A stretch of DNA of 64,000 nt, taken from the NCBI RefSeq assembly GCF_019665765.1, contig NZ_CP081150.1:1860001-1924000 (forward strand), given 5' to 3'. Positions within the stretch are counted from its first letter, which is position 1, and every line of letters begins with the position of its first letter. The notes under the pieces were generated by a model that worked only from the letters and a program-made list of their open reading frames with translations, ran no database searches and was not told the origin of the DNA. Source of the stretch: Deefgea tanakiae (GTDB taxonomy: Bacteria; Pseudomonadota; Gammaproteobacteria; Burkholderiales; Chitinibacteraceae). A program made the position numbers and the translations under genes. Below are positions 25,301 to 47,047 of this stretch, one piece after another.

Positions 25301-25788
25301 AATTTATTGCGGGTATCGTCGCTGGCATGCGGATTAAAAATGGCGACCGAGGTCGGATGTGCTTTTTGCAGCTCGACGATGGTCATGCCAAAGTCGAGCT
25401 GACGCTGTATTCGGAATCCTATGAAGCCAATCGCACCAAGCTCAAAGAGGACACGCTGCTGGTCATCGAGGCCAAAGTCTCCGAGGATCGTTTTTCTGGC
25501 GGGCAGCGGATTATTGCCGATCGAGTCTTTGATCTTGCCGAAGCGCGCAGCCATTTCGCGCGTGCCTTGAAAATCAATATGGGCAGTGAAGCCGATGCCG
25601 CGCGACTGAAACAATTACTCGCTCCGCACACCGCAGAGCATGGCTGCGCTGTTGAAATTGATTATCAAAATACCGAAGCACGCTGCCAAATGACTTTGAA
25701 TCACGCTTGGCGGATTTTATTACGCGATGAATTATTAGCCGATTTACGCGATTGGTTAGGCCCACAAGCAGCCGAACCTCGCTTCTAA
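22345..25788 (+). CDS. dnaE: DNA polymerase III alpha subunit
   Basis: 1147 residues, close to E. coli DnaE (1160). It has an N-terminal PHP domain (HLRLHSEFSVSDGIV), the polymerase core with GPGRGSGAGSLVAY and the catalytic aspartates in MPDFDIDFC (about residue 400), fingers with LRRAMGKKKPEEM, and C-terminal helix-hairpin-helix and OB domains (FIAGIVAGMRIKNGDRG). It is the replicative polymerase that works with the beta clamp and epsilon. The divergent YjfB gene lies directly upstream, and a strong hairpin follows the stop. Confidence 0.97.
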   Translation: MNAPAYIHLRLHSEFSVSDGIVRLEDAVKRAKADKMPALGMSDLMNLFGLVKHYKACRNAGIKPIIGLDAWIENPDNRDKPFRTLLICKNRDGYGRLCELITMAFRDNQYRGRGELKKEWFTAGDNSGLIALSGAELGEIGQQFLANNSDLATTAAQWWSAQFPNSFYLEIQRTGTQASETSLQRQLDLAGDLNLPVVATHPIQFMDPDDFKAHEARTCISAGFVMNDKRRPKDFTEEQYFKTTAQMQELFADLPEALANTVTIAQRCNIEIVLGKNVLPPFPTPEGMTLDDFLVYEAKRGLEMRLAQLYLDEAEREAERPRYYERLKIETDTIINMGFPGYFLIVADFIAWGKVNGCPVGPGRGSGAGSLVAYSLGITDIDPTAYALLFERFLNPERVSMPDFDIDFCQENRWRVIEYVREKYGADAVSQIATFGTMAAKAVVRDVGRVLDLPYMFCDGVSKLIPAAPGKQYSLDDALEMVPELAERVEREEELKELWELAKKLEGLTRNIGMHAGGVLIAPNKITDFCPVYQAAGDDASPVSMLDKDDVEAVGLVKFDFLGLRNLTIIELALQYIKTQTGEYLDLMSLGFGDQAAYQVFRDANTTGVFQVESDGMKRLLEKLAPDRFEDIIAVLALYRPGPLGSGMVDTFINRKKGLEAPDYFHPDLEKCLEPTYGVIVYQEQVMQISQIIGGYTLGGADMLRRAMGKKKPEEMAKHRETIAEGAAKQGYDPKLAETLFDLMTKFAEYGFNKSHTAAYAVVSYHTAWLKAHHTAAFMAATMSSELDNTEQLKVFYDDCLDKKNKLVILPPDLNESFYRFVPVGKKQIRYALGAIKGVGESAVNMIVAEREKNGPFKDLYDLCSRTDKKEVNKRVVDALIRGGAFDALEPNRAKLMANVEQAMAVAEAELANANQCSLFDMLEPAAAPQIEHIEAEPWDEKIKLAEEKTAIGFYLSGHPFDAHAKPIKGLIRTRLDRLQNQREPQFIAGIVAGMRIKNGDRGRMCFLQLDDGHAKVELTLYSESYEANRTKLKEDTLLVIEAKVSEDRFSGGQRIIADRVFDLAEARSHFARALKINMGSEADAARLKQLLAPHTAEHGCAVEIDYQNTEARCQMTLNHAWRILLRDELLADLRDWLGPQAAEPRF

Positions 25789-25790
25789 CC

Positions 25791-25835
25791 GTATTGCCCT
25801 CTAAGCCTTTTTATTAAATGCTTAGAGGGCAATAC
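25791..25835. terminator. Perfect 16-bp hairpin after dnaE
   Basis: GTATTGCCCTCTAAGC (25791-25806) is complementary to 25820-25835, with a 13-base loop that contains TTTTT. It starts three bases after the dnaE stop. No T run follows, so termination is probable but not certain. Confidence 0.65.
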
Positions 25836-25898
25836 ATCAACATTTTAATTCCACCGTCCTACTCTTCTTTTTATGCCTCCCCTGCGGCAAACTTCATC

Positions 25899-25912
25899 TT
25901 GATTTTAATCAA
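25899..25912. promoter_or_regulatory. FNR/Anr-type binding site upstream of pflB
   Basis: TTGATTTTAATCAA is an exact match to the palindromic consensus TTGAT-N4-ATCAA. It lies 329 bases before the pflB start in a 450-base gene-free stretch. This would place the oxygen-sensitive pyruvate formate-lyase genes under anaerobic activation with a long leader, as for E. coli pfl. The remaining leader (25913-26220) is AT-rich and shows no further feature that I can support. Confidence 0.7.
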
Positions 25913-26240
25913 TTTCTTACAAGCCTTCTGCCACTTTTCACATTCCATTTCTGCCATTAAAGGCATAAGATATTGTCATGAAAGAGATAAATATCTAAAG
26001 AGTATTGTTTAAGATAGTTTGATTTAGAGCCAGCGTATGTAGTTGAAAATATTCAGTAACATATTCTGGAACATGATGTACATCAACTTTTAGAATGACA
26101 ATATTGTTACGATGATTTAATAAGTATCAAGAAAACACATTGCCCAATCCGGCAATACACTGATGCGCTTTCAATTCACCAATTGAAAGCTTCGGCCCAA
26201 AGATTGTCCAACAGACATCGCCCATAGGAGTCTCACCCAA

Positions 26241-28574
26241 ATGAATGCCCCTCAAGAAAACCTGCAAATCAACGCTTGGCGTAATTTCACTGCAGGCGAA
26301 TGGCAAGAAAAAGTACTAGTTCGCGAATTTATTCAAGCCAACTACACACCGTATTTGGGTGACGATACTTTCCTTGCTGGCCCGACTGAGCGCACTACCC
26401 AATTATGGACAGAATTGTCTGCACTCTTAAAAGAAGAGCGCAAACGTGGTGTTTTAGAAGTATCTACTTCAGTTGGCTCAAGCATCACTGCACACGGCCC
26501 TGGCTACATCAATAAAGATTTGGAAACCATCGTTGGTTTACAAACCGATGCCCCTCTACGCCGTGCGATTATGCCAAACGGCGGTTTGAAAATGGTTGAG
26601 AATGGCCTCAAAGCCTACCATTTTGAAATGAATCCACAGATCAAAGACATCTTTACTAAATATCGTAAAGATCACAACAACGCCGTATTTGATGCCTACA
26701 CGCCAGAAATCATGGCCTGCCGTAGCTCAGGCGTGATTACCGGTTTGCCAGATTCATACGGTCGTGGCCGGATTATCGGTGACTATCGCCGTGTAGCGCT
26801 ATATGGTGTGGATTTCCTGATCGCGGACAAAAAACGCGAAAAAACTGAAATCGACAATGTGCCATTTACTGAAGCCATCATTCGTTTGCGCGAAGAATTG
26901 GCAGAGCAAATCAAAGCGCTATCTGAACTCAAACAAATGGCGAAAAACTACGGCTTTGATATTGGTCGCCCAGCTGCGACAGCACAAGAAGCGGTGCAAT
27001 GGCTGTACTTCGGTTACTTGGCTGCCGTAAAAGAGCAAAATGGCGCGGCGATGTCGATTGGTCGTATCTCGACCTTCCTTGACGTGTACTTCGAGCGCGA
27101 TTTGGCTGAAGGCACGATTAACGAATCACAAGCGCAAGAATTGATCGACCATCTGGTGATGAAATTGCGTATCGTGCGCTTCTTGCGTACCCCAGAATAT
27201 GATGATCTATTCTCAGGCGACCCAACTTGGGTGACTGAATCGATTGGTGGTATGAGTGAAGATGGCCGTACTTTGGTCAGCAAAACCAGCTTCCGTGTAC
27301 TCAATACCCTCTACAACCTTGGCCCAGCACCAGAGCCAAATTTGACTGTTTTGTGGTCGACTTCATTCCCACAAGGCTTTAAAGAATTCTGCGCGAAAGT
27401 ATCGATCGACACCTCGGCGATCCAGTACGAAAACGACGATTTGATGCTGCCAAAATGGGGTGATGATTACGCAATTGCCTGCTGCGTTTCTGCGATGCGC
27501 GTTGGTAAACAAATGCAATTCTTCGGTGCCCGTGTGAACTTGGCTAAAGCCATGCTGTACGCGATCAACGGCGGCGTGGATGAAAAAACGGGCAAAGTCG
27601 TTGCAAAAGGTTTCGAGCCAATCAAGAGCGATATTCTCGAATACGATGAATTGATGCCGAAATTTAATGCCATGCTCGACTGGTTGGCAAAAACGTATGT
27701 TACTGCGCTCAATTCAATCCATTACATGCACGATAAATACTCGTACGAACGCATCGAAATGGCATTGCACGACCGTGACATCTTGCGCACGATGGCCTGC
27801 GGTATCGCTGGTTTGTCAGTGGCTGCCGATTCATTGTCTGCCGTGAAACACGCCAAAGTGCATATCAAACGCAATGAAGCCGGTATTGCAGTGGATTACG
27901 TGATCGAAGGCGAATACCCAGCCTACGGTAATAACGACGACCGTGTTGATGATATCGCTGTGTGGTTGACGACTGAATTCATGAACAAAATCAAAGCGCA
28001 ACCCGTGTTCTACCGTGATTCAATGCCAACACAATCGGTATTGACGATCACTTCGAACGTGGTTTACGGCAAGAAAACCGGTAACACGCCAGACGGCCGC
28101 CGTTCAGGCGCACCATTCTCACCGGGCGCAAACCCGATGAATGGCCGTGATACCAATGGTTTCGTTGCTGCGGGTTTCTCAGTGTCGAAGATTCCGTACG
28201 AATCAGCACTGGATGGTGTGTCTTGGACAGCATCGATGACACCAGACGCACTCGGCCACAACGCAGCAGATCGCGTTAAGACTTTGGCTGCCTCGATTGA
28301 CGGTTTGTTTGGCCCGCACGGCGACGAATGTTCTGTGTGCATGACCTCAGATAAAGTCGACGCAAAATTGGCTGAAATCGAACAAGGTCCAGACCAATTG
28401 TTCCACTTGAACATGAACGTGCTGAATAAAGATACTTTGCTGGATGCCGTTGAACACCCAGAAAACTATCCGCAATTGACGATTCGTGTTTCTGGCTACG
28501 CAGTGAATTTTGTGAAGTTGACTCGCGAACAACAAATGGACGTGATTAACCGTACGTTCCACGCCAAGTGTTAA
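26241..28574 (+). CDS. pflB: Pyruvate formate-lyase (formate C-acetyltransferase)
   Basis: 777 residues (E. coli PflB 760). The PFL domain carries the catalytic cysteine pair in [12 protein letters not shown] (about 414-415). The C-terminal glycyl-radical motif [10 protein letters not shown] (Gly about 752) is present. The enzyme splits pyruvate with CoA into acetyl-CoA and formate under anoxia. The radical glycine is installed by PflA (28992-29792). An AGGAG ribosome site precedes the ATG. A short protein nearly identical to the last 53 residues follows at 28662. An FNR-type box lies upstream. Confidence 0.96.
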
Positions 28575-28661
28575 TTTGACATAGCATGGCAATATCCCAC
28601 AAGGGTATTGCCATGTAGACATTAATTGATAATGCCTACAAGCGTATACCCAAAAGGATAA

Positions 28662-28850
28662 ATGATGGCTCAGCTTTTTCACTTGAACATGAATGTCTTG
28701 AATAAAGAAACACTCGAAGACGCGATGGAAAATCCAGACAAATACCCACAACTCACCGTGCGCGTATCTGGCTATGCCGTGAACTTTGTGAAGCTCACGC
28801 GTGAACAACAGCAAGACGTGATTAATCGCACTTTCCACGAAAAGTGCTAA
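28662..28850 (+). CDS. Mini stand-alone glycyl-radical protein (GrcA-like, 62 aa)
   Basis: 62 residues (or 61 from the second ATG at 28665), with AAAGGA just upstream. It consists only of the glycyl-radical end of Pfl[19 protein letters not shown], then [18 protein letters not shown]. Counted by eye, 44 of 53 residues equal the PflB C-terminus. E. coli GrcA (YfiD, 127 aa) replaces the oxygen-cleaved end of PflB; this protein is about half that length and lacks its N-terminal part. It sits between pflB and pflA. The likely role is repair of oxygen-damaged PflB, by analogy. A decayed duplication is unlikely because frame, start and stop are intact. Confidence 0.8.
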
Positions 28851-28870
28851 TTTAATACGCCTCGCACCAG

Positions 28871-28900
28871 CGGATCGCAGGCATGCCTGCGGTCCGTTTT
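28871..28900 (+). terminator. Rho-independent terminator after the mini glycyl-radical gene
   Basis: CGGATCGCAGGC (28871-28882) folds with ATGCCTGCGGTCCG (to 28896; one G-U or mismatch) and is followed by TTTT. pflA therefore probably has its own promoter or depends on readthrough. Confidence 0.75.
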
Positions 28901-28991
28901 CATATCCAGCGCCAACCTAGCGTCTAAACTGCAATATTACGCGCGGCGTAACAGAGTTCAGTTAAAATCAAAAAAACACACTGGAAATCAC

Positions 28992-29792
28992 ATGCAGATC
29001 AACAAACCCGCAGGTGAAATAGTCCCTGCCGCTTTTGATGCCGATGGCAATCAATATGGCTATGTCCATTCAATTGAAACGGGTGCCGCCGTTGATGGCC
29101 CAGGCATGCGTTTTGCGTTATTTGTGAGCGGCTGTCAGTTCCGCTGCCTTTACTGCCACAATCCTGATACGTGGAAGCTACACAATGGCAAGCAATACAC
29201 GGTCGACAATATCGTGGCTGAGATTGGCAAATACGCCAGCTTCCTACGTATTGCAGGTGGCCTGACCATTTCAGGTGGCGAGCCACTGATGCAAGCGCAT
29301 TTTATTGGCGAGATTTTCCGCCGCGCCAAACACGATCTAAAAATCCATACCGCGCTCGATACCCAAGGCTTCTTGGCCGCGCATTTGCCCGATGAATACT
29401 TCGACAACATCGACTTGGTACTGCTCGACATCAAGCAATTTAATCCCGAAAAATACGAAGCACTCACCAGCAAGCCTTTACAACCGACGCTCGACTTTAC
29501 TGAGCGCCTAATTCGCATGCAAAAGAAAATTTGGCTGCGCTATGTACTGGTGCCTGGCATCAGCGATGACGAAGCCGATGTAGAAGGTTTGGCGCAATAT
29601 TTAGGCGACTTGAACCGCCTAGCACCTGATCTCATTGAGCGAGTGGAAGTGCTGCCCTTCCATAAAATGGGGGAAGACAAATGGGCAGAGCTGGGTATGA
29701 AATACGAACTCACCGACACCCGTCCACCGAGCCAAGAGCTCGTTCACCGCGTGCGAGAGCAATTCCGCGCGCAAGGCCTATTCTGCTGTTAA
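28992..29792 (+). CDS. pflA: Pyruvate formate-lyase activating enzyme (radical SAM)
   Basis: 266 residues. The radical SAM cluster motif is C-QFR-C-LY-C (Cys48, 52, 55), followed by HNPDTWKL and the SAM-binding TISGGEPLMQ. It uses SAM and a [4Fe-4S] cluster to form the glycyl radical on PflB, and probably on the mini protein at 28662. It is slightly longer than E. coli PflA (246), with about 20 extra N-terminal residues before YGYVHSIETG. Confidence 0.95.
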   Translation: MQINKPAGEIVPAAFDADGNQYGYVHSIETGAAVDGPGMRFALFVSGCQFRCLYCHNPDTWKLHNGKQYTVDNIVAEIGKYASFLRIAGGLTISGGEPLMQAHFIGEIFRRAKHDLKIHTALDTQGFLAAHLPDEYFDNIDLVLLDIKQFNPEKYEALTSKPLQPTLDFTERLIRMQKKIWLRYVLVPGISDDEADVEGLAQYLGDLNRLAPDLIERVEVLPFHKMGEDKWAELGMKYELTDTRPPSQELVHRVREQFRAQGLFCC

Positions 29793-32706: not shown

Positions 32707-32950
32707 CGTTTTTAATTTGAATTTTTATCGATGTATTGCCAGTGAGGCTATGTACATAAATATTTCCCAGCAAAAAATAGCCATCAAGGGCCAACCCGCT
32801 TCCTTACTGCTTTTCAAACAAAGTATAAATGGGTATACGCAGCTATCAATCAGTAGAAAGACTCTAAAAACGAATACCCATTAAAAATCAAAGTTCAAAA
32901 AATCTACCTTAAGCCAGATCATAATTATTGCTTGGCTGTTATTTAGCTAT

Positions 32951-35671: not shown

Positions 35672-35871
35672 ATATCCCCTTCCAGAGACAGTATGTATTT
35701 AGCTGTAGCTTTTTATCTGCAACGCCTAGCTGGCAATACATCGACTTAAAATCAAACTCGTTGAGCTAGGCGAGATCCCTTGTATTGCGCCGAGCAAGGT
35801 GTGGCGAAGCTTGGCAACTTGTTGACTTAGCGCAGCCCATGACCTTAGGCCAGTATCCGACGAAGTCGGAC
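35471..35871 (+). repeat. Left direct repeat around the chitinase block
   Basis: The integrase remnant and the sequence after it (GGATATCCCCTTCCAGA and CTGGCAATACATCGA, up to about 35751) match 46660-46926 in the same orientation. A second matching patch, TTAGGCCAGTATCCGACGA, occurs at 35844 and at 47020. The repeats enclose about 11 kb. From 35872 to 36043 I see nothing. Confidence 0.7.
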
Positions 35872-46842: not shown

Positions 46843-47047
46843 ATATCCCCTTCCAGATACGGCATATATGTATTTAGCTACAGCCTTTTATCTGCAATGC
46901 ATAGCTGGCAATACATCGATTTAAAAGGCTTTGTTCAGACTTGGTGTTGATATGTTTGAAAATAAACTGAATTCGCCCCTTCCCCCTTGACGGGGGAAGG
47001 TTGGGATGGGGGTGGAAACTTAGGCCAGTATCCGACGACGCCGGACA
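46660..47047 (+). repeat. Right direct repeat around the chitinase block
   Basis: Partner of 35471-35871 in the same orientation. Similarity runs through the integrase remnant and about 80 bases beyond it, then resumes at TTAGGCCAGTATCCGACGA (47020). The gap between the patches differs in length and sequence in the two copies. Confidence 0.7.
46978..47000. repeat. CCTTCCCCC hairpin
   Basis: CCTTCCCCC (46978-46986) pairs with GGGGGAAGG (46992-47000). It is followed by TTGGGATGGGGGTGG. This type of G-rich palindrome is a common dispersed repeat. The remaining bases to 47194 hold the start region of the next gene. Confidence 0.5.

Follow-up and report, generated by a model that had tools for sequence, protein, structure and literature searches.

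Between the genes for pyruvate formate-lyase (pflB) and its activating enzyme (pflA) in Deefgea tanakiae lies a short gene whose predicted product resembles only the glycyl-radical end of PflB, and the question raised by this arrangement is what such a fragment does beside an enzyme that is itself complete. The gene was studied within a window of 64 000 nucleotides, the whole stretch of DNA analysed, to which all positions given here refer. The 777 aa PflB encoded upstream (26241..28574; above the TIGR01255 cut-off) has the catalytic pair Cys414–Cys415 and its own radical glycine, Gly752, and the gene downstream (28992..29792; above the TIGR02493 cut-off) encodes PflA, the radical SAM activating enzyme; NCBIfam and Pfam models confirm both flanking genes, and all three genes lie on the + strand. 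The original prediction of a complete open reading frame at 28662..28850 (+) between them was borne out, and the length of 62 codons that it gave holds when counted from the first ATG (28662). The spacing of the Shine–Dalgarno sequence AAGGA (28654–28658, + strand, 6 nt before ATG 28665) and the alignment of relatives nevertheless make the second ATG, one codon later, the likelier start, giving a protein of 61 aa (28665..28850) in which the radical glycine, Gly36, is encoded at 28770–28772 (+). A ribosome-site-like word stands 5–10 nt ahead of the aligned start in 26 of 26 genomes that carry the gene, the start codon is GTG in one relative (G006), and the protein is probably translated.

The small protein matches the Pfam Gly_radical model with 63.4 bits against a cut-off of 22.2, on which ground a chance open reading frame was rejected, and it consists of the bare domain. 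Compared with the radical domain of the window's PflB (residues 722–777; 28404..28571, +), its paralogue, it has 49 of 58 residues identical across the whole shared domain, and the earlier figure of 44 identities over PflB's final 53 residues is exact. At the DNA level the two are 73% identical with an uncorrected pS of 0.85, which indicates an old copy and not a recent one. A Gly_radical search of the whole genome found four places, namely pflB (in two pieces), the small gene and a 749 aa frame at C1:2361791 that is probably nrdD, judging by its length; the search revealed no further small radical-domain gene and no ordinary GrcA, and a second, full-length GrcA was accordingly rejected as a candidate. 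The structural model of the small protein (pLDDT 76.5) superimposes on the NMR structure of Escherichia coli YfiD (6OWR) with TM scores of 0.71/0.72 and an rmsd of 1.5, at 73% identity over 48 columns (Foldseek E 2.8e-3). Structure searching with the model returned E. coli PFL and YfiD (Foldseek E 1e-3 to 3e-3), as did searching with the sequence. The predicted fold is the one that GrcA/YfiD of E. coli adopts in its structured half, and only five residues precede His6, the aligned counterpart of His704 in PFL and His72 in YfiD.

We compared 43 genomes of the family, representing eleven genera. The PflB radical domain is present in 43 of 43, and a second, stand-alone match in 26, all from four genera (g1, 7/7; g4, 6/6; g9, 9/9; g11, 4/4), the other seven genera contributing 0 of 17; these 17 genomes have PflB and lack the small gene. 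The order of genes is the same throughout: in all 26 carriers the small gene stands directly after a complete pflB, and downstream of it comes a pflA-type cysteine motif. In a PflB tree built by a quick method without the radical domain, the carriers and one further genome, G001, form a single clade (27 rows, SH-aLRT 100); in G001 pflB is followed by one hairpin and then by pflA, and the gene was probably lost there, inside the carrier clade. The same arrangement occurs, among the best 80 of 565 loci in a wider locus scan, in two Silvimonas species (L036, L037) and in a metagenome-assembled genome titled Janthinobacterium (L035). No other small form was confirmed in samples of 399 genomes from the order, 369 from the class and 398 from the phylum, these being overlapping draws in which sizes were taken from stop-to-stop frames. 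Twenty stand-alone stretches beyond the family were read, stand-alone frames of 128–141 aa lying outside these 20; 18 were ordinary GrcA, long N-terminal half included, one (G1143) was a 307 aa frame that is the end of a PflB, and one (G762) was a weak match (E 1.8e-4) with no radical-glycine motif. Among phages, hits came from 1533 of 50,697 records, and the three phage proteins that were measured are 119–124 aa long.

The original prediction had held that frame-disrupted copies in relatives would mark the gene as a dying duplication. Such copies were looked for; none of the 26 is broken, and within genera the pN/pS of the small gene is 0.059 (g1), 0.039 (g4), 0.039 (g9) and 0.093 (g11), beside 0.045, 0.022, 0.029 and 0.048, respectively, for the radical domain of PflB (ratios from uncorrected proportions, at mean pS of 0.41–0.68). 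The intact copies and these ratios, which point to strong purifying selection, argue against a dying duplicate, and the possibility of a pseudogene was rejected on the same grounds. Positions 30–46 of the shared domain, which include the RVSGYAV loop, are identical in all 52 rows of the alignment bar one V/I exchange. The consistent differences between the paralogues fall mostly ahead of the radical glycine: at position 20 Asn replaces His (24/26 small proteins versus 1/26 PflBs), at position 22 Asp replaces Glu (25/26 versus 0/26) and at position 23 Lys replaces Asn (20/26 versus 0/26). In the best DNA tree the copies of g9 and three of the four from g11 are nested within the pflB of their own genus, which fits repeated origin or gene conversion; a single clade of all 26 copies is not rejected (AU p = 0.173). 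The copy in G020 (L006) has a long branch in the tree, and similar imperfect repeats, GCGGTACTCGA...AAGCCTCATGTAC, flank this copy on both sides, in the gap after pflB and downstream; they are perhaps a mobile repeat.

As to expression, the ribosome site and terminator that had been claimed for the small gene are both present, the latter as a terminator-like stem-loop with a short T-run at 28870..28900 (+). This feature is absent from a general consensus scan because the scan wants five T in eight bases and the run here is the short TTTTCAT. A stem-loop with a T-run follows the small gene within 95 bases in 25 of 26 carriers, the exception being G020. The 90-base gap after pflB also folds strongly (z −3.96; 0 of 200 shuffles as stable), its stem-loop (28584..28616, +) having no U-tract, and the remaining 25 gaps form stem-loops of varied strength by folding, without shuffle comparison. 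A promoter scan of 25700–29100, the gap and the region upstream of pflB included, gave no promoter-like site on the + strand and fewer sites than in shuffles; this is weak evidence, since none was listed on that strand upstream of pflB either. Just 2 of 26 carriers have an FNR-like box with at most one mismatch within 470 bases downstream of pflB. An own regulated promoter for the small gene is accordingly not supported, if weakly tested, and the suggestion in the original prediction of a regulated second radical carrier finds no separate support. FNR-like boxes do lie upstream of pflB, with a perfect consensus match at 25899..25912 (+) and matches with one mismatch at 26073..26086 (+) and 26117..26130 (+), the consensus used being what we take to be the FNR type. 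Across the whole window 71 matches with at most two mismatches were found versus 47 expected. Upstream of pflB, 19 of 19 regions (that of the window and those of 18 of the other 42 family genomes) contain a match at this level and 17 of 19 one with at most one mismatch. We infer from these sequence features that pflB and the small gene are carried on one anaerobically induced transcript.

Some repeats elsewhere in the window were also recorded. An uptake-sequence repeat was considered for the hairpin words GGCAATA/TATTGCC, which number 24 per window, and was rejected, the longer word GGGTATTGCC occurring but once in the window. The word AGCTGGCAATACATCGA[CT]TTAAAA is found at 35728–35751 and 46903–46926, with part of it also at 32734 on the other strand, and the genome holds five copies at no more than three mismatches and the reversed control none. 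A long inverted repeat, GTATTGCCCTCTAAG...CTTAGAGGGCAATAC (25792–25837), directly follows a 1147 aa open reading frame that ends at 25788, the product of which we take to resemble DNA polymerase III alpha, and is probably its terminator.

The PflB of the carriers is itself unusual immediately before its radical domain, where the window's protein has a hinge of 33 residues (689–721; 28305..28403, +). In an alignment of the 43 family PflBs with E. coli PFL, this hinge measures 26–36 residues in 27 of 27 members of the clade (the 26 carriers and G001), 7 in each of the 16 others and 12 in the E. coli enzyme, and the insertion is the only clade-specific PflB indel of more than two residues (columns occupied in half or more of the clade and in no more than one-tenth of the others, or the reverse). 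The presence of a longer hinge in exactly the carrier clade (27/27 versus 0/16) is, as a finding, new here. One hinge Cys is invariant in all 27 clade proteins and might have a redox role. In the model of the window's PflB (34 sequences, pLDDT 88.4), residues 695–715 are the sole internal stretch with pLDDT below 50, and the hinge is predicted to be flexible. Thirty-three alignment columns carry a residue that is fixed in the clade and missing from the other PflBs, and 12 of them fall in one 60-residue block just before or in the hinge (P ~1e-4 for any block, assuming uniform placement and ignoring uneven conservation). An internal start at the PflB hinge Met was rejected, as eight stretches contained no clear ribosome site and the window's PflB lacks that Met. 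In the numbering of E. coli PFL (Met counted) the insertion falls at about residue 698, beside the published clip and recognition sites: Andorfer et al. (2021; PMC8683613) place proteolysis at 690–695 and propose residues 696–733 of cleaved PFL as a recognition element. That the long hinge is causally tied to the small gene is our proposal from the sequences; the altered hinge is confined to a single clade, which offers no statistical test of the link, and G001 retains the long hinge without the gene.

The scan of genomes that yielded the Silvimonas loci also uncovered a second kind of stand-alone radical domain. In the best 80 of 565 loci there were 83 radical-domain occurrences; 57 were full-length PflBs (three of them from L035–L037), three were small genes of the window's type, four lay in stretches without a PflB body, and 19 came after a body frame that retains the catalytic Cys pair and lacks the radical domain. 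In one of the 19 (L054) the body frame is broken, leaving 18 clear cases (L038–L042, L047–L052, L070, L080, L082, L083, L093, L098 and L110), which we take from their titles to be actinobacterial. In all 18, PflB ends shortly after ...NLV(x)xLDxGF and is followed by an 82–83 aa protein with a conserved N-terminal tail, after which a pflA-like frame mostly comes, and 20 of 21 split or related genomes contain a single match to the 82–83 aa protein. Their length suggests that these proteins are GrcA2, and body and small protein appear, from their sequences, to make up a two-piece PFL. The carriers do not have this layout, PflB keeping its radical domain in the window and in 26 of 26. In one Corynebacterium (L101:1612–4092, +) a single frame spans PflB body, former spacer and small radical protein, an apparent re-fusion of the split enzyme. 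In a candidate division SR1 bacterium (L106) PflB looks broken when read in table 11, presumably because UGA codes for Gly in SR1, and there is no small stand-alone gene.

Our current working hypothesis, which we hold with moderate confidence on the strength of sequence, models and analogy, is that the small gene encodes a minimal spare part of the GrcA type, co-expressed with PflB and swapped in after oxygen cleavage. Oxygen cuts the PflB backbone at the radical glycine; the 61-residue protein, a replaceable unit of strand, glycine loop and C-terminal helix, would displace the damaged domain and take a glycyl radical from PflA, and pyruvate cleavage would be restored. The disordered tail of about 60 residues that is thought to let E. 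coli GrcA/YfiD find cleaved PflB is missing, and its job may fall to co-expression with pflB and to the extended, flexible PflB hinge of this clade, on which the native radical domain could swing out. The reduced repair subunit of the original prediction is in this form the best-supported reading, given the homology to GrcA, the fold match and the reported properties of a truncated YfiD described below. The intact, selected copies next to pflB, the invariant radical loop, the lack of another small GrcA in the genome search, the clade-specific hinge and the separate radical domains of the 18 actinobacterial loci also count in its favour; the 17 family genomes with PflB and no small gene, and a best DNA tree in which the copies do not all group together, count against it.

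Other explanations have to be set against it. The small protein might be a standing second subunit that trades places with the radical domain of an intact PflB, a share of the enzyme then working in two pieces in the absence of oxygen too. The family's only PflBs with the long flexible hinge are those of the carrier clade, actinobacteria apparently run two-piece PFLs, and E. coli GrcA is reported to restore activity to uncleaved PflB G734A in vivo (PMC12338860), all of which would suit such a subunit; we nevertheless think it unlikely, as PflB's own complete radical domain is under at least equally strong selection and, in another report, activation of E. coli YfiD could not be detected unless cleaved PFL was present (PMC8683613). 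Less probable again is that the protein acts as a decoy or brake, competing for PflA or sitting inactive in PflB and so lowering PFL activity. In favour, its RVSGYAV loop is identical to that of PflB and its consistent differences lie mostly before the glycine; against it, all 26 copies preserve the radical loop in full, the glycine among its residues, and a brake would not need the glycine.

The remaining two explanations seem to us very improbable. That the gene is a tandem duplicate of the 3′ end of pflB, decaying or neutral, is suggested by the hinge end M-DQLFHLN of some relatives, which resembles the small-protein start M-AQLFHLN and hints at an origin by tandem duplication, and by the probable loss in G001, yet neither decay nor neutrality agrees with 26 intact copies, each with a ribosome site, and pN/pS below 0.1 at pS of 0.41–0.68. 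Spare parts for other glycyl radical enzymes have been suggested (PMC8683613), and a GrcA-like gene lies beside the anaerobic ribonucleotide reductase gene in two of three phages examined; a repair part for that reductase or another such enzyme would not, however, be expected to have pflB as its neighbour in 26 of 26 genomes or to share 49 of 58 residues with the PflB domain.

Stand-alone radical domains with a strand, an RVSGYAV loop and a C-terminal helix are already known from GrcA/YfiD of E. coli and Y06I of phage T4 (TIGR04365), and spare-part proteins also include those of the NCBI models GrcA2 and GrcA3 (78–80 positions); the small protein is a shorter variant of these. E. coli GrcA has 127 aa with a disordered N-terminal half and is unlinked to pfl (in strain K-12 pflB and pflA are adjacent and grcA lies elsewhere), whereas the small protein has 61 aa, is encoded directly after pflB and lacks that half (about 60 residues), scoring 93.5 bits against TIGR04365, below the cut-off of 170. 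The original prediction took GrcA to be usually unlinked to pfl, which holds for E. coli, but not for the actinobacterial GrcA2 proteins, which follow pflB. GrcA2 (NF008341, 80 positions) is likewise short and is the top-scoring NCBIfam model for the small protein (121.9 bits, over positions 21–79 only, below the cut-off of 145); it differs in an N-terminal tail of about 22 residues, which the small protein does not have, and, in the 18 actinobacterial loci, in a partner PflB without a radical domain, that of the window being complete. GrcA3 (NF038360, 78 positions), compared by model only, is by model length and name another short stand-alone radical domain (101.9 bits, below the cut-off of 158). 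Among open-licence papers we found none on GrcA2, and nothing on point for such small proteins in these bacteria or for a two-piece PFL.

The closest parallel is an artificial one, truncYfiD (YfiD 61–127), which has nearly the same extent and consists of the structured domain only; the small protein, whose alignment with PFL begins at residue 704, is thus close to a natural truncYfiD, a tail-less form whose PflB has a longer hinge. According to Andorfer et al. (2021; PMC8683613), residues 1–60 of YfiD are disordered, and their removal reduced radical installation four-fold and made binding to cleaved PFL not measurable, while activated truncYfiD complexes catalysed at about the wild-type rate. 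The Deefgea protein is in effect a natural version of the fragment whose weak activation prompted the proposal that the tail finds damaged PFL, and a lineage that has the fragment alone, with a PflB altered near the E. coli clip and recognition sites, makes that proposal directly testable. It is tempting to go further and speculate that PflB and the small protein are a co-adapted quick-change system, the built-in radical domain swinging out on the clade's hinge and a co-transcribed, tail-less cartridge being swapped in routinely and not only after damage, a step that we regard as rather doubtful. Were it true, the hinge would take over the recognition job of the disordered tail of GrcA, and the enzyme would be intermediate between the one-chain plan of E. 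coli, whose tailed spare is unlinked, and the two-piece PFL of actinobacteria. Together, the small protein and the apparent two-piece enzymes of actinobacteria suggest that the radical domain of PFL is an exchangeable cartridge.
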